Virus record (IMG/VR): IMGVR_UViG_3300036804_000352 | Span: 1-39,518 of that record | From: a virus | DNA: 39,518 bases | Direction: 5' to 3' (one strand) | Part shown: in pieces, positions 479 through 39,518 of the stretch | Layout of the letters: every line of letters starts with the position of its first letter | How positions within the stretch are numbered: position 1 is the stretch's first letter | Made by a program: the position numbers and the translations under genes | Notes under the pieces: generated by a model | The model's database searches: none | Told to the model about the DNA's origin: nothing | The model's input: only the letters and a program-made list of their open reading frames with translations

Positions 479-582
479 GTACGGCTTAACCGCCTGCATT
501 AATGCCAACTTTTAGCGCACGGCTCTCTCCCAAGAGCCATTTCCCTAGACCGAATATAGGAATCGTATTCGGTCTTTTTTTT
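479..582 (+). ncRNA. sdsR: SdsR (RyeB) small regulatory RNA
   Basis: The segment reproduces the SdsR RNA of enterobacteria: the CTGCATTAATGCCAAC block, TTTTAGCGCACGGCTCTCTC, CCAAGAGCCATTTCCC, and the terminator stem GACCGAATA/TATTCGGTC (548-556 with 566-574) followed by eight T. The length of 104 nt equals the E. coli RNA. SdsR is an Hfq-binding, sigma-S-driven RNA that represses several mRNAs in stationary phase. The RNA is complete, so the prophage, which begins directly after the terminator, restored or spared the 3' end. In E. coli an antisense RNA, SraC/RyeA, covers this locus from the other strand. Its promoter side is replaced here by phage DNA. Confidence 0.92.
548..582 (+). terminator. 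SdsR intrinsic terminator and presumed attL core
   Basis: A 9-bp stem (548-556 with 566-574) is followed by a run of eight T (575-582 with the flanking C/T). It is the last recognisably host sequence before phage DNA. Tyrosine integrases often use such RNA-gene 3' ends as attB, so the identity core is expected in this hairpin. The exact core cannot be set because the attR copy is outside the window. Confidence 0.7.
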
Positions 583-593
583 GTCTGTTTTTC

Positions 594-626
594 AAAACAA
601 TCACTTATAGTAAAAACAATCACTTA
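594..626. repeat. Direct repeat beside attL, candidate integrase arm sites
   Basis: AAAACAATCACTTA occurs at 594-607 and again at 613-626, 19 bp start to start, between the SdsR terminator and the end of int. Short direct repeats next to the core are the usual form of arm-type binding sites of P2-like integrases. Function is inferred from position. Confidence 0.55.
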
Positions 627-650: not shown

Positions 651-1706
651 TTACTCATTTGGATTCCCCATCGCCATTTTATCGCCACTGATTTGAGCCA
701 GCGGATTCAGGTGGATAGCGTCTTCCAGGTGATCCGGAGCAAAGTGCGCGTATCGCATAGTGACCCGGATATCGGAGTGCCCGAGGATGCGTTGTAGCAC
801 GATGATGTTGCCACCGGCCATCATGAAATGGCTGGCGAACGTATGCCGCAGAACGTGCGTCATCTGACCTTCCGGCAGTTCGATGCCGGCCAGCCTGATC
901 ACTCGATAAAACTGCTTATAGCAGGGTGAGAAGGGCGCGCCTTTACGGGCGATCAGTTCATCATAGAGGGGGCGGGCGAGGGGAACGGTACGGTTCTTTT
1001 TACCTTTGGTATTGATAAAGGTGAGTTTGTACGGGGAAATCTGCGAGCTTTTGATTTTGGCAGCCTCGTTCCAGCGTGCGCCGGTCGAAAGGCAGACTTT
1101 AACAATAAGCGTTAATTCGTCATTTCCATGCTGTTCGCAGGCGGCCATGAGCAGCAGGATTTGTTCCTGAGTCAGCCATGCCATCTCACGTTCCGGCTGA
1201 TCAAACTCGCGGATATTCTCGAGAGGGTTAGGTAGCGACCATTCCCCCAGGCGTTTCAACTCATTGAACACCGCCCGCAGAAAAGCATGTTCACAGTTCA
1301 CCGTACCGGTGGAAACTTTACGGGTCGCCAGACTGGTACTGTAACCATTATCAATTTCGCCACGCAGCCGCTGATCACGATAGTGTGCCCAGTCCTTCGG
1401 GGTGATCATGCTGGCTATGGGGTCACCCATTCCCGCGCTGATAATCCTTAGTTTTCCCAGTCGTCCCTTTTTATCATTCAGAGAGCAGCCGTGCAGGCTG
1501 TACCAGAGATCGACCAGTTCGCTCAGCTTCCGCCGGTCTTCCTTCTCGCCCAGCCACGGTTTGTTCTTTGCCTGATCCATGGTGTAAGTTTCAAAGGCAA
1601 CGGCTTCACCTTTGGTATCAAACTGCCTGCGGCATCGCTTACCTCCACTCCCGTTCGGGTAGCACTCACATAACCATTTACCGGTAGACAGCTTTCTTAC
1701 ACTCAT
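651..1706 (-). CDS. int: Tyrosine recombinase, P2-type integrase
   Basis: A 351-residue integrase that inserts and excises the prophage at the sdsR 3' end. With the extra GTG codon at 1709 counted as residue 1, the catalytic set is complete: R212 (STGARW), K235 near the beta-hairpin (NTKGKKNR), H285-x-x-R288 (THVLRHTFASHF), H311 (LGHSDIR) and nucleophile Y320 (MRYAHFAP). The N-terminal part (GKRCRRQFDTKGEAVAFE) is the arm-binding domain seen in P2 Int. The ATG at 1706 is preferred because AAGGAGG stands just upstream. Its 3' end faces SdsR with no terminator in between. A LexA box overlaps its promoter. In P2, int lies next to the repressor gene; here it lies beside ogr, on the other side of att. 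Confidence 0.93.
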   Translation of the reverse strand: MSVRKLSTGKWLCECYPNGSGGKRCRRQFDTKGEAVAFETYTMDQAKNKPWLGEKEDRRKLSELVDLWYSLHGCSLNDKKGRLGKLRIISAGMGDPIASMITPKDWAHYRDQRLRGEIDNGYSTSLATRKVSTGTVNCEHAFLRAVFNELKRLGEWSLPNPLENIREFDQPEREMAWLTQEQILLLMAACEQHGNDELTLIVKVCLSTGARWNEAAKIKSSQISPYKLTFINTKGKKNRTVPLARPLYDELIARKGAPFSPCYKQFYRVIRLAGIELPEGQMTHVLRHTFASHFMMAGGNIIVLQRILGHSDIRVTMRYAHFAPDHLEDAIHLNPLAQISGDKMAMGNPNE

Positions 1707-1735
1707 CACATCCTCCTTTTTGAGAATGTGAATAT

Positions 1736-2322: not shown

Positions 2323-2544
2323 TTAATGCATCTGCAAAGATTGTTGCTGATGTTTATCCGGATGCAACTGAACAGCATGAACGGTGCCGGGTTCAACAAT
2401 AATGTCAGCAATAGACTCATGGGTTTTAAACGTGCAACTGCAATTAATATTCTGACACTGGTGATAACGTTCTTTGGTGTTAAGGCTCAGATAACGGCTG
2501 GAACGGGCGTGTGCTGCGTGCTGGCATTTCGGGCAGTGCATCAT
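2323..2544 (-). CDS. ogr: Ogr/Delta zinc-finger late transcription activator
   Basis: A 73-residue protein nearly superimposable on P2 Ogr: MHCPKCQHAAHARSSRY, TKERYHQCQNINCSCTF and EPGTVHAVQLHP. The zinc ligands are C4-x2-C7 and C30-x4-C35. Ogr contacts the alpha subunit of host RNA polymerase and switches on the four late promoters; candidate binding sites are annotated at FI, V and O/P. The ATG ATG pair at 2544/2541 is chosen because GGTG lies just upstream and P2 Ogr begins there; the reading can extend to 2556. In P2, ogr follows D closely. Here fosA, in the opposite orientation, separates them, so ogr needs its own promoter or long readthrough from D across fosA. Confidence 0.93.
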   Translation of the reverse strand: MMHCPKCQHAAHARSSRYLSLNTKERYHQCQNINCSCTFKTHESIADIIVEPGTVHAVQLHPDKHQQQSLQMH

Positions 2545-2685
2545 AATAATCACCATGTAATCATTTTTAATCAGATGCGGTCATTGTATGTTATCGCGTT
2601 CAGCATACATCTTAAATTACAGTGATTTACACTCTTCAAAATCTTGGTAATTCAAGAGAACTCAATCAAATCAAAAGGGGGAGTT

Positions 2686-3087
2686 ATGCTATCCGGATTG
2701 AATCACCTCACTCTCGCGGTCAGTCATTTACCGCGCAGTTTTAGTTTCTATGTAGATGTTCTTGGTTTTATGCCTCGGGCTAAATGGGCGAGAGGGGCTT
2801 ACCTGTCACTTGGTGACCTGTGGTTATGTTTATCCTTAGACACTTCCATTGACCCCAAGACGGATTACACTCATTACGCCTTTACTATCGAATCAGCCGA
2901 CATGCCGTCATTTCGAGAGAAAATACGGCATGCCGGTGTTGTCGAGTGGAAAAATGATAAGAGTGAAGGGGAGTCAATTTACTTTCTCGATCCGGATGGC
3001 CATCAGTTAGAAGTTCATTGTGGTGATCTTGAAAGCCGGCTCCGTTCCTGCAAAGAAAGCCCATACGATGAAATGGAATTCTTCTGA
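2686..3087 (+). CDS. fosA: FosA-type fosfomycin glutathione transferase
   Basis: A 133-residue vicinal-oxygen-chelate (glyoxalase fold) enzyme that opens the fosfomycin epoxide with glutathione, a cytoplasmic Mn2+/K+ dependent dimer in known FosA proteins. The family residues are present: metal ligands H7 (LNHLTLAV), H63 (TDYTHYAF) and E109 (GHQLEVHCGDL), T9, and the K+ loop/phosphonate motif KNDKSEGES (89-97) followed by YFLDPDGH. The ATG at 2686 is chosen for the AAGGGGG site and the canonical FosA N-terminus; the frame extends to 2644 without a good ribosome site. It sits between ogr and D on the opposite strand, 15 bp from the end of D. That marks it as cargo inserted into the late region, presumably with its own promoter. 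Confidence 0.88.
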   Translation: MLSGLNHLTLAVSHLPRSFSFYVDVLGFMPRAKWARGAYLSLGDLWLCLSLDTSIDPKTDYTHYAFTIESADMPSFREKIRHAGVVEWKNDKSEGESIYFLDPDGHQLEVHCGDLESRLRSCKESPYDEMEFF

Positions 3088-3102
3088 TGTGAGTGGCTCA
3101 GG

Positions 3103-4257
3103 TTAGCTGTTTTCCGTCGCCTCATAACTCACATCCGACAGCAACACCTCAAGATTCAACGTCGTCACAAATCCACTGCCGCCCAGGCTGTGTGTCACCT
3201 TGCTGATTATCCAGGGCTGCGCGTCGATCACTGATTTAAAGCCGGACACGGCCACCGGCGTCTCAGGGAATAAATCAGCCCGCCCGCGTGCCAGGGAGAT
3301 AGAGAACTCCGCGACACCGCGCTGGAGTTTGTCCCATTTCGCCTGGGCTGCCCGCATGGCGGCCTTTTGCGTGGCGTAGATGGTGGTGAGGGTAAACACG
3401 TTTTCATCGCTGCCCGCCAGATAATCCCCTTCCTTCGCCTCCGGCGTTTTCTGCACCTTCGCGCTGGTCTTTTTTGCCTTCGGGTGTTGCAGGGCGCGCA
3501 GGTACTGCACTTTCTTTTTCCGCTGAACCTTCACCTTTTTCGGCTTCGGGTCTTTGGTATGCAGCCAGCTTGCCCACACGCCGGTATAAGCCCCACGGTC
3601 AGCAATATTGAACGTGTGCCCGTCGCCGTCGCTGCGGACAATGGTCATCTGCGGGATAGGCTTACCACTGGCCGTCTTTGCCGCGCCTGGTTTGATAAAC
3701 AACAAATTACCGGCCTTAATGGCGACAACCGCGCCGTTCAGCTCCGCCAGACGGGTGATAAATTTCGCGTCCGTTTCCTGAGTCTGGTCGATATGCGATA
3801 CCGGCACACCCCTGAAAGGTTCTGCAACCGCGGGCTTGAGGTTGTTGCGCGCCGCCACGGCGGACACCACCGCCTCCAGCTTGGTGTCGTGATAAGAGAT
3901 ATCGCGGCGGGAATTCAGGCTGCCGCGATAGTCCGCACTTCGGGCGCGGAGGGTCAGCGTGTCCGGCGTTCCGCGATGCTCCACCTCATCCACGGTAAAG
4001 TCGCCTTTGTTCGTCAGTGCCTGACCTTTCCAGCCGAGCGCGATATTAATCACCGCGCCGCGTGGCGGCATGTCCAGCAGGCCGTCGGTGTCGCTCAGCT
4101 CGATGTCGAGCTGGTCAGCCTCAAAGCCACGGTTGTCCGTGAGCGTCAGCGAAATCAGCCGGTTGCTGACGTCCTGCGTGATGTCCTTCTCGCCGACGGT
4201 CACCGTGAAGTCCGGCGCAAACAGCGCACCGGCTCCGATGGTCATATCCGTAATCAC
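3103..4257 (-). CDS. D: Late control / tail hub protein D
   Basis: A 384-residue homologue of P2 gpD, the baseplate hub at the tail tip (phage late control D / gp27-like fold). The N-terminus TVGEKDITQDVSNRLISLTLTD and the central FRGVPVSHIDQTQETDAKF are characteristic. A Lys-rich linker (KKVKVQRKKKVQ, around residue 242) is usual in the family. The start codon overlaps the U stop by 4 bp, so the genes are translationally coupled. It is last in the FI-FII-E-T-U-D operon. Confidence 0.93.
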   Translation of the reverse strand: MITDMTIGAGALFAPDFTVTVGEKDITQDVSNRLISLTLTDNRGFEADQLDIELSDTDGLLDMPPRGAVINIALGWKGQALTNKGDFTVDEVEHRGTPDTLTLRARSADYRGSLNSRRDISYHDTKLEAVVSAVAARNNLKPAVAEPFRGVPVSHIDQTQETDAKFITRLAELNGAVVAIKAGNLLFIKPGAAKTASGKPIPQMTIVRSDGDGHTFNIADRGAYTGVWASWLHTKDPKPKKVKVQRKKKVQYLRALQHPKAKKTSAKVQKTPEAKEGDYLAGSDENVFTLTTIYATQKAAMRAAQAKWDKLQRGVAEFSISLARGRADLFPETPVAVSGFKSVIDAQPWIISKVTHSLGGSGFVTTLNLEVLLSDVSYEATENS

Positions 4258-10017: not shown

Positions 10018-11925
10018 TTAGTTTCCCACCTGTCGCCAGCTTCCGCTCGCCGTTCGTACCATTAACGCACGGTAATATTTCCCCATCATCCGGCAATCAC
10101 CCAGATCAGAGCGGATATTTAAACCCGTCATGAAGCAACCCGTGGGCGCTTCCCATACCTGCTGCGCCGACCATCCCGCATTTTCCAGCGCCTGACTGCC
10201 TCGCTGTACGTCATAGATGTAGCGCCCGTCAGATTCGGATTTTGTATAAGCGCCGGTTTTTGCCATGTATCCGGCATCTGACTGCGACTTGGTGTAATAG
10301 CGGTTATCAAAGTTCGAATAGTTACCCGGAGTGATGGTGCCCGTGCAACTGATGGTGCCGTCCGAAGAAACGGGGATCCCTGTCCCAAAACTTACCGCAC
10401 CTGTCGCAAGATTAATTCTCAGCGGGCGCAGGTCGTTATAGCCGCCGTAAGCATCCCCTGACTTAGTGAGCATGAGATAGAGGTAAGAGCTATCCTGCCG
10501 CCAGAAGGAACCATAGTCCCCCTGAACAATACGGTAGGCGTTTGCGCTGGTTGACTGAAACTCTGCTGAATTTCGCACAATACCGTTTACCGCAGTAGTG
10601 CCTGTAAGGGGAACCGCCTCTACGTCTGCGGCGGTCGGTTTGTGCTTTGCATCATAGACCGGCACCCAGTCCCCCCATACGCCTCCGGTCTTCAACCGAT
10701 AGAACATCTGAGCATTCACTACACCCGCAGGCCAGCCGATTTGTTTTGCCGAATTTTTATCATATTGGATATGAATAATTTCACCTGCGGTATTCGCCAG
10801 CGGACCATGAACGCCTGCGCTGCTGACCGCGTAAAACCCGTTTTTACTTATCGTATTTGCGTCAGCAGTATTGAGGGAATCTGTCCCGACACCGAAAGCA
10901 CCCACTGACATCACGTTACCGTCTGCATTGCCCACGTCTTTTGTGGCGGCGCTTCCTAATCCGTCGACATTCGCGGCGGTGAGGGCGATATCTTTCGTGC
11001 CGTCAAAGGCCACACCGGCAATTTTACGCGCCGTGGCAAGTTTGGTTGCGGCAACGGCGGTGCCGCCGGAAGGCAATGCGCCGACGTTATCCGGCGTCAG
11101 GCTGATGTCTTTTGTTCCGTCGAACGCCACACCGGCAATATTGCGGGCGGTGGCGAGCTTACTTGCGGCGACAGCCGTGCCGCCCGCAGGCAGTGCGCCC
11201 ACGTTCGCGGGCGGAATGCTGATATCCGCCGTGCCGTCAAACGCTACACCGGCAACTTTACGGGAGGTCGCGAGCTTGTTCGCAGCGACGGCAGTCCCGC
11301 CGGACGGCAATCGCCCGTTGGCATTATCATTCGCCGCCTTCACGGCTTTGGGCGTCGCCGCCAGGGTTTCGCTGTCGCTGGTTACCGAGCTGCTGAGCTG
11401 GACAAAACCTTTGGCCGCCGTGGTGCCGTCCGGATGATTACGTGATTTTTCATGCGCGGCCAGCAGGTCATTCACATAACCCTCGGTGGCGACAACGATC
11501 GAATCATCAATGATCAGCGTGATGGCCTCCGTGTCAGAGACGGTGATCACCATACGTAAAGTCTGCGTGCGGCCTGAACCTTCCGCCAGGGTCGGTTTGT
11601 AGGTGTCCGCCATATTGCACACGGCAATCAGCGTGCCGTCGTCTGCGAACAGCCCCATTTCCCGCATCCAGAAGCCGCCGACGCTCGCCGAAATAATGGC
11701 TTCAGCAATGATCCAGTTTGCGTGTGACGCATCCAGCTTTAACGAGTTCAGCGGCGTGCGAAACACCTCTTTAACCAGTTTGGTCTGTGTGGCGACGGGC
11801 GTGGTCGCCTTGCCGTTGCCGTCACCGACGGCGAGCTGGGTGATTTTAATGTCCGTCCCCGCCTGGATAGCTGCCGCGATGCGGGCTTGTCCGAGCGTGG
11901 TGACAACCGATTTAAACGTGCTCAT
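10018..11925 (-). CDS. H: Tail fibre protein H
   Basis: A 635-residue side-tail fibre that recognises the host surface. Residues 1-150 are the conserved P2 H base-attachment domain (SVVTTLGQARIAAAIQAGTD, FWMREMGLFADDGTLIAVCN). Residues 206-322 are three 39-residue shaft repeats. The C-terminal ~300 residues (GDYGSFWRQDSSYLYLM... GCFMTGLNIRSDLGDCRM) form the variable receptor-binding part. The receptor cannot be read from sequence. Confidence 0.92.
   Translation of the reverse strand: MSTFKSVVTTLGQARIAAAIQAGTDIKITQLAVGDGNGKATTPVATQTKLVKEVFRTPLNSLKLDASHANWIIAEAIISASVGGFWMREMGLFADDGTLIAVCNMADTYKPTLAEGSGRTQTLRMVITVSDTEAITLIIDDSIVVATEGYVNDLLAAHEKSRNHPDGTTAAKGFVQLSSSVTSDSETLAATPKAVKAANDNANGRLPSGGTAVAANKLATSRKVAGVAFDGTADISIPPANVGALPAGGTAVAASKLATARNIAGVAFDGTKDISLTPDNVGALPSGGTAVAATKLATARKIAGVAFDGTKDIALTAANVDGLGSAATKDVGNADGNVMSVGAFGVGTDSLNTADANTISKNGFYAVSSAGVHGPLANTAGEIIHIQYDKNSAKQIGWPAGVVNAQMFYRLKTGGVWGDWVPVYDAKHKPTAADVEAVPLTGTTAVNGIVRNSAEFQSTSANAYRIVQGDYGSFWRQDSSYLYLMLTKSGDAYGGYNDLRPLRINLATGAVSFGTGIPVSSDGTISCTGTITPGNYSNFDNRYYTKSQSDAGYMAKTGAYTKSESDGRYIYDVQRGSQALENAGWSAQQVWEAPTGCFMTGLNIRSDLGDCRMMGKYYRALMVRTASGSWRQVGN
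10960..11310 (-). repeat. Three tandem 117-bp repeats in the tail fibre gene
   Basis: Each unit encodes 39 residues of the form LP[S/A]GGTAVAA.KLAT, R..AGVAFDGT.DI and NVGA. Units span residues 206-244, 245-283 and 284-322 of H. Such in-frame repeats can expand or contract by recombination. Confidence 0.85.
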
Positions 11926-14401: not shown

Positions 14402-14422
14402 GTTGATGGCGGGTGGCACAAC
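14402..14422 (-). promoter_or_regulatory. Candidate Ogr-dependent late promoter site for V (PV)
   Basis: GTTGA-N11-ACAAC, continuing as GTGGG. The stretch TGGCACAACGTGGG is identical to that at the O/P divergent promoters. It lies about 55 bp before the V start. Confidence 0.6.
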
Positions 14423-25349: not shown

Positions 25350-26582
25350 TCATGATATTTTGAGGATGTCTTTAATATAAAGATTAAGGAACTCTCCTAT
25401 GACCTGAGCGCTTGTAAAAGCAGCATACTTTTGAAAATCATCATGCTTTTGTTGATCGGCGAAATCACATACAGACTTTATAGCAAATGTAATCGGTTTA
25501 ATGTTTGAGGCACTTAAGGCTGAGCTATATACACCATAGACTTCCATTTCGATACCTTTAAGTGTTCTATCTTGTTGGATTACGTCTTTAACAATATTCT
25601 CATCGGCAAGGACGGCTGATCCTGATGCCATTGAGCCAGAATGTAATCTTAATTCATGGTCAATATTAGAAATTTTCCATTTTGATTTTATTTTACTTAA
25701 AAGTAGCTTGTTATGAGACATTTCTACGTATCGTGTCTCAATAAATTCTGGTACATGAATTTGGTGGGGAGCAATAAAAAACTTTGATTCATCTTTATCA
25801 ATCGCTCGTTTGCCACTTTGATAATCCCAGCATGTCGTTGCAAGAATAGGATCGCCAAGATTAACTTTTCCTTTAATTCCGGCACAAATTCCCGACATTA
25901 TTAATATCTTAGGTCTGCAAATATGAATAAGTTTGGAAGAGAGAATTGAGGAAGTGACCATACCCATTCTGGAACCAGATACAGCAACAACAGAATATTT
26001 ACTGCCATCTATGGTAAGACATCCCTTACGCATGAAGGTAGTGTTATCTAAAGGGGTTGGATCACCCCAGTCCCAATCAAGTTCCAAAATAGCAGTAAGT
26101 TCGGGGTCATATAAGGCAGTCAAAATACAAACGTCAACCCTAGGAATATCGTCTTCCTTATTGTTTTCATTTTGTAATAAATAACGTACACAATTTAATA
26201 TTTCCTTTACCCATCCATCGCTATTATCTATGTAGTGGAACAATGTCCAGAGGTTTTCATTGAAGAAAATCTCATGTTCTTGAACAAGTTCTTTAAAAGC
26301 TGACAAACCAACAATTTGTAAGGGGGGTATGAGTTCTCCACTGTTTTTGATATCCTCAAGAAGTTGCATAGAAACATCAATACTTTCATCACTCTCAATA
26401 TAGTAGGGTAGACTTAGATCTAAGATCATTAGATCGTATGTATTATCAGATAAGAGTCTCCTTGCATCGGATGATGAACCGACGGAAGATATGTTCTCTC
26501 TTGTGATACCATCCAGGGTCATAAGTTGAGATATAACTTTTTTAACCTTTTCTATATTATCATCAATAATTAATATATTCAT
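25350..26582 (-). CDS. dtcC: DtcC-like effector: receiver fused to a nucleoside phosphorylase/nucleosidase domain
   Basis: A 410-residue protein. Residues 1-135 are a response-regulator receiver with acidic pair D7/D8 and phospho-acceptor D55 (DLMILDLSLPY); S94 replaces the usual Thr, and His stands where the conserved Lys is expected. Residues ~148-410 are a PNP_UDP/MTAN domain: LTALYDPELTAIL, ILIMSGICAGI (229-236), GDPILATTCWDY, GIEMEVYG (343-350, nucleoside-binding Glu) and catalytic-type D373 in SVCDFAD. Known Detocs DtcC cleaves ATP to adenine and ribose triphosphate once phosphorylated, emptying the cell of ATP when a phage attacks; that activity is inferred here from architecture. It is third in a tight operon, 2 bp after dtcB. 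Confidence 0.85.
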   Translation of the reverse strand: MNILIIDDNIEKVKKVISQLMTLDGITRENISSVGSSSDARRLLSDNTYDLMILDLSLPYYIESDESIDVSMQLLEDIKNSGELIPPLQIVGLSAFKELVQEHEIFFNENLWTLFHYIDNSDGWVKEILNCVRYLLQNENNKEDDIPRVDVCILTALYDPELTAILELDWDWGDPTPLDNTTFMRKGCLTIDGSKYSVVAVSGSRMGMVTSSILSSKLIHICRPKILIMSGICAGIKGKVNLGDPILATTCWDYQSGKRAIDKDESKFFIAPHQIHVPEFIETRYVEMSHNKLLLSKIKSKWKISNIDHELRLHSGSMASGSAVLADENIVKDVIQQDRTLKGIEMEVYGVYSSALSASNIKPITFAIKSVCDFADQQKHDDFQKYAAFTSAQVIGEFLNLYIKDILKIS

Positions 26583-26584
26583 AT

Positions 26585-27058
26585 TTATAACTCCTTTTTT
26601 ACTATATCTAATGCTGATATCAATTTATGTCTCCAATCATCAAACGATGTTTCATACTTTATCATTTCTACATAAATGTCTTCAAATTCAGAACCAAGAT
26701 CGTCTTTAACTTCCTGGAAAGTTATTTCTTTTTTCTTATCAACGTCATTATTTGAAGAGAATTCTTCATACGCAGTTACTATTATCACTGGGGTGAAAAA
26801 ATCATAATTTTGCATTTCCCTCATGACTTCTTTTCCACCGAAACCTTGCGGTCTGCCTCCATTTTCATCTTCACTTATGTCAAAAGTAGGTAGAGACATG
26901 TCTAAAATAATTAGGTCGAATCTCTTCTCGTGCAGCATGTCAATGGCTGAACGAACAGACTTCACAGTTGTAATGAAAGTATTAAGAACAGACTCTTCAA
27001 CACAAAGAATTATTTTATCAGCTTTGGTGGCTTCATCTTCAACTAGTAAAATGTTCAC
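26585..27058 (-). CDS. dtcB: DtcB-like stand-alone response-regulator receiver
   Basis: A 157-residue receiver with no output domain. GTG at 27058 is chosen for GGAGG upstream and because the reading then begins NILLVEDEATKAD. Acidic pair E7/D8, phospho-acceptor D53 (DLIILDMSLP), T in VIIVTAY and K in MIKYET complete the set. It is longer than a minimal receiver because of an insert after D53 (DENGGRPQGFGG) and a long acidic segment before beta-5. In Detocs, DtcB is thought to act as a phosphate sink that guards against accidental firing of DtcC. It overlaps dtcA by 20 bp and precedes dtcC by 2 bp. The frame upstream of 27058 is part of dtcA. Confidence 0.85.
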   Translation of the reverse strand: MNILLVEDEATKADKIILCVEESVLNTFITTVKSVRSAIDMLHEKRFDLIILDMSLPTFDISEDENGGRPQGFGGKEVMREMQNYDFFTPVIIVTAYEEFSSNNDVDKKKEITFQEVKDDLGSEFEDIYVEMIKYETSFDDWRHKLISALDIVKKEL

Positions 27059-30000
27059 TTTCAACCTCCAGTTTTTTGTATGGAGCATCACTTGAACCAA
27101 TATAAGGTAAGGTAATGTTTAAATAAAATGTATTTTTATCTGAAAATCCAAAGTCTATGCTACCGCCTGCATCAAGACGAACAGTCGATGCGATTTTTTT
27201 CAAACCAGAACTACCTTCTTTGGCCACATTTTCTAGATATGAACCGAGATTTATTTCTTTTCTTATTAAATCCAATATTGCCTGACTGCGTTCATTCCTA
27301 CTTTCAGGAGATATTTTATTTTCAAATTTAAACTGTAGGAAAGCTCTATCAGGAGTATAAGCGGCTTCAATAAGTAGTTCCGAATGCTCACGACAGAATG
27401 AATGCTCAGATATGTTACCTATTACAATTAATAATATATCTGAAAGAACTACAAGAGAGTCTGCTCTTAAAATGATTGAATCATCAATTATTTTATTTAA
27501 CTTAATATTACAACCTTTGTGACGAACTAGAGCAGCTTCAATTGAGATATCTATTATTTCATTTAAGGTGTAACTATGCTTTGTTAATTCATTTTGTACT
27601 TTAATAAACCATTGCGACGCTCGGTCAATAAGCACTTGAAATTCTGCCGATGACTCGTTGATCGCTGTAAATAATTCATGGTTTATTCTATGTCGGCCTG
27701 TACAATTTACCAAGTTACTTTGTAGGGTCTCAAAAAGAACAATGAATTTTAATTTATATTCTTTAGTTAAGGTTTCACGAAGATTAGCTAACGAAGGCTC
27801 AAGCATTAACCATAGGAACTGACATGAAATGTCAACCCATGATTCGAGATCATAGTTATTTTCTTGAAGGAAAGACCGAGTAATATAAAGATACAACGGA
27901 ACTGTTTCTGTTTCGATAGTTATCAAGCCGTGAGGGGTTTCATTGGTCTTGATATGTAGTATTTCATTTTTAATATAGGAAGTTAATTTATCAAATTCAC
28001 TTCCAAATTTTTCTAAAGTTTTTAATATTCTTTCTCTCTCATTATCACTATATTCAGTCAGCTTTGCTTCCCAATATTCATTGCGATTATAGTTATCACT
28101 TGAGTCTTTCTTAAGTGTGATAAGTTTTTTATTTTCAATTGCACCTCTTAGGTAACCAGCAATTGAGTTATGACGTACTCTTTTACTGAGGTAGCTATTT
28201 AGACCATATTGATTATCAAGTAAGAAAGTATCTTTTAAATCTTCAAACATTGTTATTAAAATATCTTCTGCTTCATTCTCTGGAATTTCATATAATTCCT
28301 GCTTAGATTTAATGTTGTCAATGGACTTAATAACCTCGCTAAACTTATCTGCCACACCAACCCCAGCTTTCACAAGACTTTTATACCTAAATAAACTTTC
28401 CTGTAACTCTTCCGAGGCCCATCTCTGAATGCCTTCAGAATCGACATGCAATCTTGTTCCATCAATGAATTTCAAGCCTTCTTTGATTCTTAAATTACTT
28501 GAAATAACTAGGATTTCTTCCTTGTAAGTTTCTGTGTTTTTAGGATCCATTTTGATTAGAATAGCTAAAGAATTTCGCCTTTCATCCTGTACTTCTTTAC
28601 TGCCTTTTAAACACCGGCACATTTCGAGAATATTATTTATACAAATTTCTCTAAGGAAATAGATTACTTTTGTAGTGTCAAATTTATCCAAGTGATTAGC
28701 TATTTCAGATGGCTTATTTAAATTGTTATTTATTAAAAAGTTATCTAAAGCCGTTCTTCTAAGGTTAGAACTTTCCTCAGTATTATATACTTTACAAACT
28801 AGGTCCAATAAAATAACTAATGATATATCTTTACTATATATTCTTAATTCTGGCCATCTAGTCTGCTTTGTGATTATTTCATCTGTGGATATAATTTCTG
28901 AAGGGAAATCATTGTCTGATACAAAGTTAGCTACAGTACTAATTGCTTCTGAAAGATCACCTACGGCGAGGCGACAATGTATCTCTAAAGGTGCAAATCT
29001 ATTTTTTATATATTTATATTCATTTTTGTTTTTTATACTTTCTAATACTTCGATAGCACTGTGGAATTCATCTGTTTTTAAGTAATAGATGAACTTTGAT
29101 ATGTATTCCGTTATTTCTACTATTCCTTTTCGTGTATCAATGAGTTTACTATTTTCAGCATTAAGAAGTGAGTGAATGTTGGGACTATCTATAAATAAGT
29201 CAACATTAATTCCTGAAGCATTTTTAAAAGCTAAATCATAAGGGTTGATATATTGAGTATTTAATGATATTTGCTTTCTGAAATAATTTTGTTTATCAGA
29301 TAAATATTGATATTCAGAATGAAGGAATCCATGTAATGAACGGATTGATGTGAATGTTGACAAGTTTAGTAGATGTTTCTCGAGGTTATTGTACCCGATT
29401 GTGGCCCAATTTTGTTTTCGGATTACGCTTGATAATTTCACAATTATTTCATGAAATATTTTATTACTTTCTCTTTGAGAAGAACTATTGTTCTTTATTG
29501 TATAGGCATGAGCTGAAATAATAACATCCATTACATCTGTAAAGTTATTTTTTATTTTATTTTTTGAATTATTAAAAGAATCATTAAGATGTCCATCGAA
29601 AATAGCTTCCATGTTTTCGAGGTTTGATTTTATGCCCTTATCAAGGGATTTATGTCCCATGGCCATAAATATCTTATCACTTCTCAAGTCACTGATATTT
29701 ATCTGAAACAATGCTTCAATTAAGTTTTTTTTAAGAGAATCGAGGTGATCTTCCTCTGACGATACTACGTATTGAGTTAATAATATCAATGTTTCATAAA
29801 GATCAACGCTTGATAAGTTATGATTGAATCTCAAGACTGATATGATTTCTTTTTCTGTAGAAGGGAATTCATTTATTAATTTAAATTTAAGATATTGAGA
29901 TAAGTCATTGTTATCTTGATAAGTCTTGGCGAGATTATTTATAGTGTTTTTATATCTTGGTATTGTGACAGCTGCTTCATTCCTCATGCTTATTCTGTAA

Positions 30001-30590
30001 GAAATGAAACGTATTAAACCCGCAGTTGTTTTATTTTTGATTTCGTTTAAAAATGATTTTTGTTCCTCTAATCCATAGAAAAATTGTATCGTTCCGAACT
30101 TAGACTCTACAAGCCAAACAGATTGGCCAATATTGTTCTCAATATCATTATACAGTGAATTAATCGATTCCGGTTCGTTCTGCCAGAAGTTTTTTTCTAT
30201 TGCCTGTTTTTTTTCAAGAAAAAAAGATATTATCTTCCGCTGTGCTTTTAACTTTGTGATAATCCAGTTTATTTCTATACGAGTTTCCGTTTCTTTAGGA
30301 TAGTTTATTAGTGTGAGGTTCTTATAAGAGGGCTTTTTAATCGGGTTCTTGGCCGGTAATAATTGGTCGATCATCTTCATTGACCATGATAGGTAATCAT
30401 CCTGGTTTGAAGCAGGGATTGTTTCGCGGGCAGAAAGCAACGCTTTTGAAAGTTTATTATTAAATCTGTCCTTTTTCTTTTCTGGCTCATCTTGGAAAAT
30501 TTTAGCACTTCTAGCTTCGCCAATTAAACCACGAAGCTTTGCTTGATGAAGTTCGATGATTGTTTTTTTTCTCTTTTTTTTAATGGTCAT
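27039..30590 (-). CDS. dtcA: DtcA-like sensor histidine kinase
   Basis: An 1183-residue protein. Residues ~1-900 are helical, Lys/Asn/Glu-rich and look like TPR-type solenoid repeats (for example FIYYLKTDEFHSAIEVLESI, APLEIHCRLAVGDLSEAIST), a plausible sensor. Around 965-975, GRHRINHELFTAINES is the candidate phospho-acceptor His helix. The C-terminal ~150 residues form a GHKL ATPase: N-box LLIVIGNISEHS (~1055) and G-box EGSSGLKKIAS (~1125), then the beta-strand GGSIDFGF. No membrane segment, so it is cytoplasmic. First gene of the operon, start supported by AAGGGG; about 30% GC, unlike the phage backbone. Expected role: autophosphorylate on phage sensing and pass phosphate to DtcB and DtcC. 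Confidence 0.83.
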   Translation of the reverse strand: MTIKKKRKKTIIELHQAKLRGLIGEARSAKIFQDEPEKKKDRFNNKLSKALLSARETIPASNQDDYLSWSMKMIDQLLPAKNPIKKPSYKNLTLINYPKETETRIEINWIITKLKAQRKIISFFLEKKQAIEKNFWQNEPESINSLYNDIENNIGQSVWLVESKFGTIQFFYGLEEQKSFLNEIKNKTTAGLIRFISYRISMRNEAAVTIPRYKNTINNLAKTYQDNNDLSQYLKFKLINEFPSTEKEIISVLRFNHNLSSVDLYETLILLTQYVVSSEEDHLDSLKKNLIEALFQINISDLRSDKIFMAMGHKSLDKGIKSNLENMEAIFDGHLNDSFNNSKNKIKNNFTDVMDVIISAHAYTIKNNSSSQRESNKIFHEIIVKLSSVIRKQNWATIGYNNLEKHLLNLSTFTSIRSLHGFLHSEYQYLSDKQNYFRKQISLNTQYINPYDLAFKNASGINVDLFIDSPNIHSLLNAENSKLIDTRKGIVEITEYISKFIYYLKTDEFHSAIEVLESIKNKNEYKYIKNRFAPLEIHCRLAVGDLSEAISTVANFVSDNDFPSEIISTDEIITKQTRWPELRIYSKDISLVILLDLVCKVYNTEESSNLRRTALDNFLINNNLNKPSEIANHLDKFDTTKVIYFLREICINNILEMCRCLKGSKEVQDERRNSLAILIKMDPKNTETYKEEILVISSNLRIKEGLKFIDGTRLHVDSEGIQRWASEELQESLFRYKSLVKAGVGVADKFSEVIKSIDNIKSKQELYEIPENEAEDILITMFEDLKDTFLLDNQYGLNSYLSKRVRHNSIAGYLRGAIENKKLITLKKDSSDNYNRNEYWEAKLTEYSDNERERILKTLEKFGSEFDKLTSYIKNEILHIKTNETPHGLITIETETVPLYLYITRSFLQENNYDLESWVDISCQFLWLMLEPSLANLRETLTKEYKLKFIVLFETLQSNLVNCTGRHRINHELFTAINESSAEFQVLIDRASQWFIKVQNELTKHSYTLNEIIDISIEAALVRHKGCNIKLNKIIDDSIILRADSLVVLSDILLIVIGNISEHSFCREHSELLIEAAYTPDRAFLQFKFENKISPESRNERSQAILDLIRKEINLGSYLENVAKEGSSGLKKIASTVRLDAGGSIDFGFSDKNTFYLNITLPYIGSSDAPYKKLEVESEHFTS

Positions 30591-36933: not shown

Positions 36934-37407
36934 ATGGATAAGTATTTTGTATATATTAATGCTAAAAAACAGGTTAATGCTTATACGCTTTATAATGTAA
37001 GTGAAAGTGAAGAACATTTTCAGGGGGTCTGTAATAAATCAAACCAACTGAAGACCTTCAGAAAAGATCGGGTTATAAAAGAATGTTCTTCATATGAATT
37101 AGCGCTAGTAGATTTAAGCGAATATAAAGGTATTGAACACCCCAGTTTTTCTAAGAATCCCAAAGTAAATCTTTTCGAAGTTTGTTTTACCGGATTTAAA
37201 AAAGATGACAAAGAAAGACTCATTTCATTAGCGACAGATAATAAAATGTCTGTTCGTGCTTCCGTGACTCAAAACCTTCAAGTCCTTTGCTGTGGATACA
37301 ATGCTGGTCCCAAGAAAGTTGATGCTGCCCGGATGAAGGGGGTGGTGATACTTGATGAAAATCAGTTCCAACTGCTAGTCGAAACCGGTGAAGTGCCAGA
37401 CTTTTAG
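36934..37407 (+). CDS. WYL-like / BRCT domain protein
   Basis: A 157-residue protein, AGGAGA upstream, 11 bp after cI. Residues 1-50 (YFVYINAKKQVNAYTLYN... LKTFRKDRVIKE) look like a short WYL-type fold with its R/K-x-F-R-K-D-R-hydrophobic end. Residues 78-157 are a BRCT domain: FEVCFTGFKKDD, CCGYNAGPKKVDAARMKGVV and ILDENQFQLLV. BRCT domains bind DNA ends or phosphoproteins. It is probably co-transcribed with cI, hence expressed in the lysogen. Function not known; defence or repair are the obvious options. Confidence 0.72.
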   Translation: MDKYFVYINAKKQVNAYTLYNVSESEEHFQGVCNKSNQLKTFRKDRVIKECSSYELALVDLSEYKGIEHPSFSKNPKVNLFEVCFTGFKKDDKERLISLATDNKMSVRASVTQNLQVLCCGYNAGPKKVDAARMKGVVILDENQFQLLVETGEVPDF

Positions 37408-37432
37408 GATAAATTTATCTGTGAGGTACCTT

Positions 37433-38065
37433 GTGACTGAGTTCATTGATTTTTTGAATAAACAAATGCTTCCTATTATAGCATTGATAATTACAATTAT
37501 TGGTTTGTTTAAAGGGTGGGTTAAGCCTAGGCAAGCTATTTTTGACCAACGAGAGAAGCTTAGTAAACATAGTTATGAGATGTATAAGATCTCAAACGAT
37601 GAAAGTTTGAAAAATCTTGCTGTAGAATATGGATATGCGGCTATAACAAAAGATGATTTTTTGACTCTCGATCAAAGGAAAGCTTTGGTCAATAGCAAGG
37701 ACCCTGTAAAAGATATTGATGTATTTTCTAGTTGTCGCTATCTGTTAAATATTAAGATAAACCCACTTTCATTTGAGTGGAAAATAAAGCGTTATAATAG
37801 CAAGATTTATTTAAATTTCGCTAGAACTTGTAGGGTATTACTCTACGGATTAGGATGCTTTATTTTCACCTTCCCAATTACATATGATAGATTTTTCCCA
37901 TCTATGATCATTAAAATGGAGACCGTTCCAAGCATGACTAAAGGCTGGTTAGTGATATATTGTGTTGTAGCTGGTGGGTGGATCGCAGGGCTAAATTTAC
38001 TCTCTGGACGTAGGTTAACACAGGCTAAGAATTTAATAGAACGACATAATATTAGGAATGAATAA
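37433..38065 (+). CDS. Membrane protein of unknown function
   Basis: A 210-residue protein. GTG at 37433, with GTGAGG upstream, avoids overlap with the BRCT gene; the frame is open to 37388. Three membrane segments: near the N-terminus (LPIIALIITIIGLFKGW), at ~125-142 (VLLYGLGCFIFTFPITY) and at ~168-187 (GWLVIYCVVAGGWIAGLNLL). A basic cytoplasmic or periplasmic loop lies between the first two. AT-rich. Inner-membrane cargo expressed from the lysogen suggests superinfection exclusion, but I recognise no family. Confidence 0.65.
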   Translation: MTEFIDFLNKQMLPIIALIITIIGLFKGWVKPRQAIFDQREKLSKHSYEMYKISNDESLKNLAVEYGYAAITKDDFLTLDQRKALVNSKDPVKDIDVFSSCRYLLNIKINPLSFEWKIKRYNSKIYLNFARTCRVLLYGLGCFIFTFPITYDRFFPSMIIKMETVPSMTKGWLVIYCVVAGGWIAGLNLLSGRRLTQAKNLIERHNIRNE

Positions 38066-38171
38066 AATTGAGATAATAATATTGTTAAGTTCAGATACTA
38101 TTATGGGTTTTGCAATAAATGCGTTGTTAAAGGATCATGAAATCGATGAGGTTATTGTTGATATCTTATAA
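38058..38171 (+). CDS. 37-residue putative peptide, possibly a gene remnant
   Basis: The ATG overlaps the end of the membrane protein gene by 8 bp. Product begins MNKIEIIILLSSDTIMGFAI and ends EIDEVIVDIL. It may be translated by coupling or be the N-terminal stump of a longer lost protein. The evidence is the overlap and an open frame only. Confidence 0.3.
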   Translation: MNKIEIIILLSSDTIMGFAINALLKDHEIDEVIVDIL

Positions 38172-38231
38172 CAAATTATGTTGAAGTAAATGTTTTTGAA
38201 ACCGTAGCTTTATTCTATAAAGGAGTAAGAA

Positions 38232-39518
38232 ATGTCTGTTAATTTATCAGTAAAAGAATTAAATCATATAATAAATAGTAGATACTCTTTTTCTTCACCT
38301 ACAAGTGAGTTAGGGCAATTAGGTCTTTTGTTCTCAGTTGACTTTATAGATGATTTTGTTGCTCTGCTATATAAATCAACACGCGGAAATATTCCTAATA
38401 ATTCATTAGTTACCCTACAAGTAAGTTTCGGATGGATAGATAAAGTACCACTGGCAAAGTTTGATGGTAACCAACATGATCATAATGGTCACAAGATCAC
38501 CAAGAAAGTGGAAATTGGTGATATGCACTTTGTTTTTAACGATAAGGTCATTACGAAAAAAATAGCCCAGGCACCTGTTATGACCAATTCGGCTTATGGA
38601 TTAATAATCCAAGCCAAAAGGTCGCCATCACTTTCCTTGCCTATTGTACCCGTTACAAACTGCAGTGCACCGAATAGTAGTACAGCTAAAGAATTTCACC
38701 TTCTAAATCTGTGGCCAGTGTTTGATCTTTATAAAACATCAAAAAGTAAATCTTCAATTTTTACAGGGATTGATCTCAATAATAATATAACTAACCGATT
38801 AAGTTATGGTTGGTACGCCGCCTGCCCCCCAAGTAATAATCTCACTAGTGATTGGCTTTGCCGCTGGATGTGCAGCCCTGCACAGCTAGGTTCAGAGTGT
38901 GATTTAACCTTAGGTCGAGTTTTATCTGCATTCTTTGATAGAACAAAATTGGGAAATATACAGGTAGGGGAAGAGTTTGATATTTCTGACGACTGGAGTA
39001 CAACCGCTAATAAACTCAGCTTCACTCCTTGGTCAAAATTAAATAACGAGATGATTGATATTTGCAAAAGTCTCAATATGCCATCAGTTGCAAAAGTAAA
39101 ATCGAAGAGGATTATAAATAAAACTATAACTCATAGACCTATCTTTGATACCCTCAGTCTATTATATACTAGTAACCCCCAACTTCTTCAAGAAGTCTTG
39201 AAAAGAATATTAGGTGAGAGGTTCATAGAGGATTCTGAGTTAAAAGAATTATTTGATTTTTTAGAGGGAGAAGGTTTTACAAATGAAGAGGCGCAAGATT
39301 TTGTTGGTGATGTTTTTGAACGAATGGATAAAGATTTAATCAAACCACATTTGTCTAGTACTCGTAATTTGGGGGATGATTTGACTCAACAAGAATTACA
39401 GCGTGTTTTCGAAATAACTATATCTAATATTGGTATCAATGATGGTTCTAAGAATAAAGGATATTATGTTTTAAATGTTTCAAGAACTATTCAAGTTATT
39501 GATGATAGAGACAGTTAG
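38232..39518 (+). CDS. Unrecognised 428-residue protein in the cI-attR cargo region
   Basis: AAAGGAG before the ATG. Soluble, AT-rich. Features seen: an N-terminal YGLIIQAKRSPSLSLPIVPV segment (with Q-x-K as in some restriction-type nucleases, not proven), a Trp/Cys-rich stretch RLSYGWYAACPP and SDWLCRWMCS, and an acidic helical region ERFIEDSELKELFDFLEGEG near 335-350. No confident domain. Last gene of the plus-strand group after cI, with its own ribosome site and a 60-bp spacer. Defence or conversion is inferred from location only. The stop codon is the end of the window. Confidence 0.7.
   Translation: MSVNLSVKELNHIINSRYSFSSPTSELGQLGLLFSVDFIDDFVALLYKSTRGNIPNNSLVTLQVSFGWIDKVPLAKFDGNQHDHNGHKITKKVEIGDMHFVFNDKVITKKIAQAPVMTNSAYGLIIQAKRSPSLSLPIVPVTNCSAPNSSTAKEFHLLNLWPVFDLYKTSKSKSSIFTGIDLNNNITNRLSYGWYAACPPSNNLTSDWLCRWMCSPAQLGSECDLTLGRVLSAFFDRTKLGNIQVGEEFDISDDWSTTANKLSFTPWSKLNNEMIDICKSLNMPSVAKVKSKRIINKTITHRPIFDTLSLLYTSNPQLLQEVLKRILGERFIEDSELKELFDFLEGEGFTNEEAQDFVGDVFERMDKDLIKPHLSSTRNLGDDLTQQELQRVFEITISNIGINDGSKNKGYYVLNVSRTIQVIDDRDS

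Follow-up and report, generated by a model that had tools for sequence, protein, structure and literature searches.

A phage-borne fosA gene occupies the ogr-D cargo slot in P2-like prophages associated with Rahnella

A fosfomycin resistance gene, fosA, lies between the late-gene activator gene ogr and the tail gene D of a P2-like prophage in the IMG/VR virus record IMGVR_UViG_3300036804_000352, whose positions 1 to 39,518 make up the stretch of DNA analysed here (the window). We consider it likely that a lineage of temperate P2-like phages specific to Rahnella carries this gene as a moron, which gives lysogens tolerance to fosfomycin and is kept by selection. An initial annotation, made from the sequence alone, had picked out the gene and understated it in two respects, since fosA has been conserved within a phage lineage of Rahnella, in which the site serves more generally as a slot for cargo.

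Compared with P2, the window shows the P2 gene order, including the Q-P-O-N head genes, the FETUD tail operon, ogr, int and an A-type replication protein, and P2-type genes for portal, terminase, scaffold, capsid, tail fibre, replication A protein, CII-like and CI-like regulators and integrase were found outside the fosA region. The left neighbour of fosA is ogr (2323..2556, minus strand; NCBIfam PRK09678, 128.1 bits against a cut-off of 116; Pfam Ogr_Delta) and the right neighbour is D, encoding the tail baseplate hub (3103..4257, minus strand; Pfam Phage_GPD, phrog_52), with the prophage integrase at 651..1709 (minus strand; Pfam Phage_integrase, phrog_1). These family models and the gene order bear out the original placement of fosA in the late region of a P2-like prophage. 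The tail-fibre gene additionally contains a 117-bp repeat in three tandem copies that are 75% alike (10958-11308).

The fosA gene itself (2686..3087, plus strand, 133 aa) runs from an ATG at 2686 to a TGA stop at 3085-3087 and is preceded by a ribosome-binding site read from the sequence (AAGGGGGAG, 2675..2683, plus strand), which relatives retain with small changes. A longer mechanical open reading frame begins at TTG 2644; several relatives lack this extension, making 2686 the likely start. The gene is divergent from ogr across a spacer of 130 bp (within 2557-2685) and convergent to D, with 15 bp between the two stop codons, so that the coordinates of all three genes agree with the arrangement first described: between ogr and D, in the opposite orientation and 15 bp from D.

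To establish the identity of the product, we compared it with curated protein families and solved structures. It scored 201.5 bits against the NCBIfam equivalog Fos_GSH (curated cut-off 180, E = 4.8e-60), whereas FosB models reached at most 102 bits, and it matched solved FosA structures at E = 2.3e-49 with about 63% identity, the closest being PA1129 FosA and Klebsiella FosA; at the level of sequence, a chance match is excluded as the source of the FosA identity. None of the named allele models, from FosA2 to FosA13, FosL and others, reached its own cut-off on this protein, which, lying above the Fos_GSH cut-off and below that of every named allele model, thus represents a new FosA allele group. 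Using the list of Mn2+, K+ and fosfomycin ligands given in PMC11933065, we found the Mn2+ ligands H7, H63 and E109 (H7, H64 and E110 in PA1129 numbering) and the K+ loop residues S93, E94, G95 and S97 all present, and the K+ and fosfomycin ligands S94, E95, S98, R119, Y100, K90 and T9 (PA1129 numbering) all kept. The window copy and two relatives identical to it have Asp in place of the nearly invariant Asn that precedes the K+ loop (N92 of PA1129), which the remaining phage FosA copies retain. The protein thus matches FosA/Fos_GSH enzymes such as PA1129, FosA-KP, FosA3, FosL, FosLL and FosA8 in fold and length and in its residues for metal, K+ and substrate. The FosA assignment made at the outset, with its intact H7, H63, E109 and T9 and its K+ loop, therefore stands, apart from the adjoining Asp; the curated equivalog model, the active-site residues and the phylogeny support a true FosA, and the equivalog cut-off, the residues and the tree rule out another VOC subfamily.

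Seven further prophage loci carry fosA at the same ogr-D position, the named ones all being Rahnella: IMG/VR contigs L002-L006, R. victoriana (L008), R. inusitata (L009) and a Rahnella genome (G013). Because L006 and L009 are probably one strain, the fosA loci number about eight with the window included. Full-length copies at 87-100% identity occur only in P2-like prophages, and the gene order int, ogr, fosA, D, U, T is the same in all fosA-bearing relatives, with constant position and flanks; the relatives suggest Rahnella as the host of the window prophage. That fosA is a chromosomal gene of the host lying at the border of a prophage is ruled out, since two phage genes flank it in every relative. 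The initial annotation had proposed a phylogeny against host chromosomal copies; in a tree of 99 FosA rows, the phage copies form one clade (support 100/99) apart from chromosomal and plasmid FosA, and FosB/FosX-like rows from phage records (L313, L314) sit on very long branches away from FosA. The stem of the phage clade is long (0.3 changes per site), and the tree does not resolve its sister. The closest non-phage relative, on a Pantoea plasmid, is 72% identical; the window FosA thus differs from every non-phage FosA found (at most 72% identity) and is carried by a phage instead of a chromosome, plasmid or transposon. A single capture by the phage lineage from an unsampled enterobacterial source would be the simplest reading. 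Pairwise dN/dS is about 0.06-0.38 at dS of up to 0.70 (NG86, six distinct phage copies), and the ogr-D copies are intact at all eight loci, with no stop and no frameshift; for the copies compared, these ratios show purifying selection on the phage fosA at the protein level.

Such constraint could also act on a different reaction, with the FosA fold retained for another host substrate (another epoxide, an electrophile or a phosphonate) and selection unrelated to fosfomycin resistance. The breadth of the VOC superfamily, the long stem branch before the phage clade and the Asn92-to-Asp replacement in three phage copies would fit this reading; we nevertheless regard it as unlikely, given that the Fos_GSH equivalog cut-off is passed, that the protein retains R119, Y100, K90 and T9 together with every K+ and Mn2+ ligand, and that FosA enzymes at 55-60% identity, including FosA13, are active (PMC11933065).

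Still less probable is an accidental passenger, captured recently, without function for phage or host and heading to decay. It would be in keeping with the rarity of fosA in the lineage (4/42 IMG/VR relatives and 3/14 Rahnella loci) and with the existence of decayed fosA relatives in two P2-like phages elsewhere. Those copies lie in the A-Q hotspot (L344:3201-3570, next to a 582-aa open reading frame, and L345:6001-6272, next to a ParA-like one), are about 61-67% identical in the matched pieces and are both broken by stops and frame changes. The ogr-D copies, however, have dN/dS far below 1, remain free of stops and frameshifts despite the divergence among them, and share position and flanks throughout.

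In host genomes, sampled as 14 Rahnella genomes with one per species, the Fos_GSH cut-off was exceeded in four, three times by the ogr-D prophage and once by a plasmid of R. sikkimica (NZ_CP019064, L317). The plasmid protein shares genus and family with the window FosA, yet is only 62% identical to it, falls in another clade and has no phage context. Outside these prophages, no chromosomal FosA was found in the 14 genomes, where weak VOC matches of 21-35 bits lay far under the cut-off; a copy of an intrinsic Rahnella fosA is thereby ruled out as the origin of the phage gene. In a wider sample of the family, 67 of 295 genomes contained FosA, mostly 48-69% identical, and among the FosA loci inspected there, none beyond G002 had the ogr-D context. 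Among 50,697 phage records, we detected no FosA, the sole matches being FosB/FosX-like proteins (34-36%) in unverified wastewater records, and the DNA of the fosA locus likewise had no match in these records.

The interval that holds fosA is variable well beyond this gene. In the window, ogr and D are 546 bp apart, compared to 97-99 bp in empty-slot relatives, and the insert (2632..3102), consisting of fosA, its leader and a short 3' spacer, is missing in those phages and replaced by other genes in others. The suggestion to look for genes between ogr and D in other P2-like prophages proved productive: among 42 close relatives, defined as phages with ogr at least 90% identical, the slot was filled in 34, with ten unrelated kinds of cargo, and empty in eight (kinship is ignored in these counts, and L112, with an interval of 98 bp and a split D gene, is counted as empty). 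The cargo consists of a 52-aa membrane-type protein (12 of the 34), a GNAT protein (5), fosA (4), an 82-aa unknown protein (3), a 111-aa unknown protein (3), a DUF4440-like protein (2), DUF7661 (2), LysE (1), an FRG-domain protein (1) and a RusA-like protein with a 260-aa protein (1), and mostly runs, like fosA, in the opposite direction to the late genes. The FRG-domain protein was seen in L100 and L343, and the RusA-like gene with its 260-aa partner in L106. Of 37 P2-like phages at greater distance, 36 have a short interval with nothing in it. Named Rahnella genomes have 11 of 14 ogr-D intervals of this lineage filled; where these genomes contain P2-like prophages of other lineages, the interval measures 73-110 bp and no gene lies in it. 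In this phage lineage, the ogr-D interval thus serves as a general slot for cargo, where unrelated genes replace each other; as most of the lineage does without fosA, the gene is not needed by the phage.

All inserts share a left border, a conserved promoter-like block of ogr (2583..2631, minus strand) that is common to empty, fosA-bearing and other-cargo phages. It contains a dyad, TGTATG-N13-CATACA, which occurs once in the window and in 0 of 100 shuffles, and a -10-like TACAAT in the sense of ogr, which reads TATAAT in an empty relative. In P2, 81 bp separate D from ogr and the annotated ogr promoter lies in that interval, and we take the block as a candidate ogr promoter. Every insert begins directly after this same block (...ATTACAGTGATTTACA), so that ogr keeps the block and D alone is moved away by the insert. 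The early remark that fosA parts ogr from its usual upstream gene is correct in the physical sense, but the promoter-like block remains joined to ogr in every variant. That fosA instead serves the lytic cycle, or regulates ogr by antisense or convergent transcription with no role of its product in the host, is a very remote prospect: the gene does face D and diverge from ogr across the shared spacer, yet unrelated genes or nothing fill the slot in other relatives and constraint falls on the protein sequence.

Our search of the open-access literature found no paper describing the D-ogr interval as a hotspot, and the ogr-D cargo slot of P2-like phages is apparently undescribed. It resembles the cos-proximal A-Q hotspot of P2-like phages (Peduoviridae; the old/tin locus), studied in E. 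coli P2-like phages by Rousset and others, who treat only A-Q (PMC9122126), in being a small locus between conserved genes with high turnover of cargo. It differs in its location, as fosA lies between ogr and D and not between A and Q next to cos, in mostly holding one small gene and in being almost confined to this Rahnella lineage. The A-Q hotspot of the window phage (25350-30590) holds the PADLOC candidate defence system PDC-M60, with M60A (1183 aa, 27039-30590), M60C (410 aa, 25350-26582, with a phosphorylase-superfamily domain) and a 171-aa open reading frame between them. On the other side of ogr, the int-ogr interval is a second variable slot: a 122-aa open reading frame at 1913-2281, with a signal-peptide-like start and no family match, is present in L002, L004, L008 and G013 and absent from L003, L005 and L009.

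FosA chemistry, the addition of glutathione to fosfomycin, is established; what appears to be new here is a phage-borne FosA within a P2 cargo slot. The prophage enzyme is predicted to act as a Mn2+/K+-dependent glutathione transferase that opens the fosfomycin epoxide with glutathione. Situated between the ogr promoter and the end of D and convergent to the tail operon, fosA would not depend on the late operon for its expression in the lysogen, and the lysogen would gain fosfomycin tolerance, an instance of lysogenic conversion. An Ogr-type late-promoter motif is absent from the ogr-fosA spacer (2557-2685) and occurs in the window only at 14402 and 22501; we recognised neither a convincing sigma-70 promoter upstream of fosA nor a terminator downstream of it, and infer that transcription in lysogeny starts from the 130-bp spacer. 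Soil, water and plants are habitats of Rahnella, and fosfomycin producers occur there as well, which makes a benefit to the host plausible; activity of the phage enzyme, its expression from the prophage and an advantage in soil and plant habitats are all predicted.

The prophage has integrated at the 3' end of two overlapping small RNA genes, SdsR/RyeB and SraC/RyeA (440-596), where the left attachment-site copy (565..596; Rfam SdsR_RyeB 482-581) corresponds to 32 bp shared with G013. In the orthologous prophage of G013, the same 32 bp form a direct repeat on both sides of a 37-kb unit that includes fosA. The phage may transfer fosA. The right copy, attR, was not found within the window, and the right end (36934-39518), with open reading frames lacking a Pfam match, departs from the G013 prophage; the record may therefore end within the prophage. 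RyeB is known as an attachment site for a Salmonella phage (PMC7380047); an effect of integration on RyeA has been reported in such a phage and could arise here too. L006 and L009 (R. inusitata) also have the C-terminal piece of an integrase beside the attachment site, some 2 kb away from the intact integrase, which points to another element having integrated there.

Phage-borne fosfomycin resistance has a precedent in Bacillus gamma phage, which, according to the statement in PMC11957107 that cites Schuch and Fischetti 2006, carries fosB; that enzyme belongs to the bacillithiol/L-cysteine class and its phage is a Gram-positive siphovirus, whereas the window holds a glutathione FosA in a P2-like phage. 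There is about an even chance that P2-like phages have in the ogr-D interval a second conversion hotspot, specific to this lineage, and that fosfomycin resistance in Rahnella is chiefly a phage trait under long-term selection and not a chromosomal one; fosA would then be a resistance gene whose natural home is a phage of an environmental bacterium. True antibiotic-resistance genes are commonly regarded as rare in phages, and here an intact, selected FosA sits in a phage lineage of environmental bacteria that are otherwise mostly without the gene. Phage-borne resistance in nature thereby becomes directly testable by gene deletion, and the ogr-D slot, with GNAT, LysE and FRG-domain proteins among its contents, offers a new place to seek phage-borne genes for host fitness or defence.
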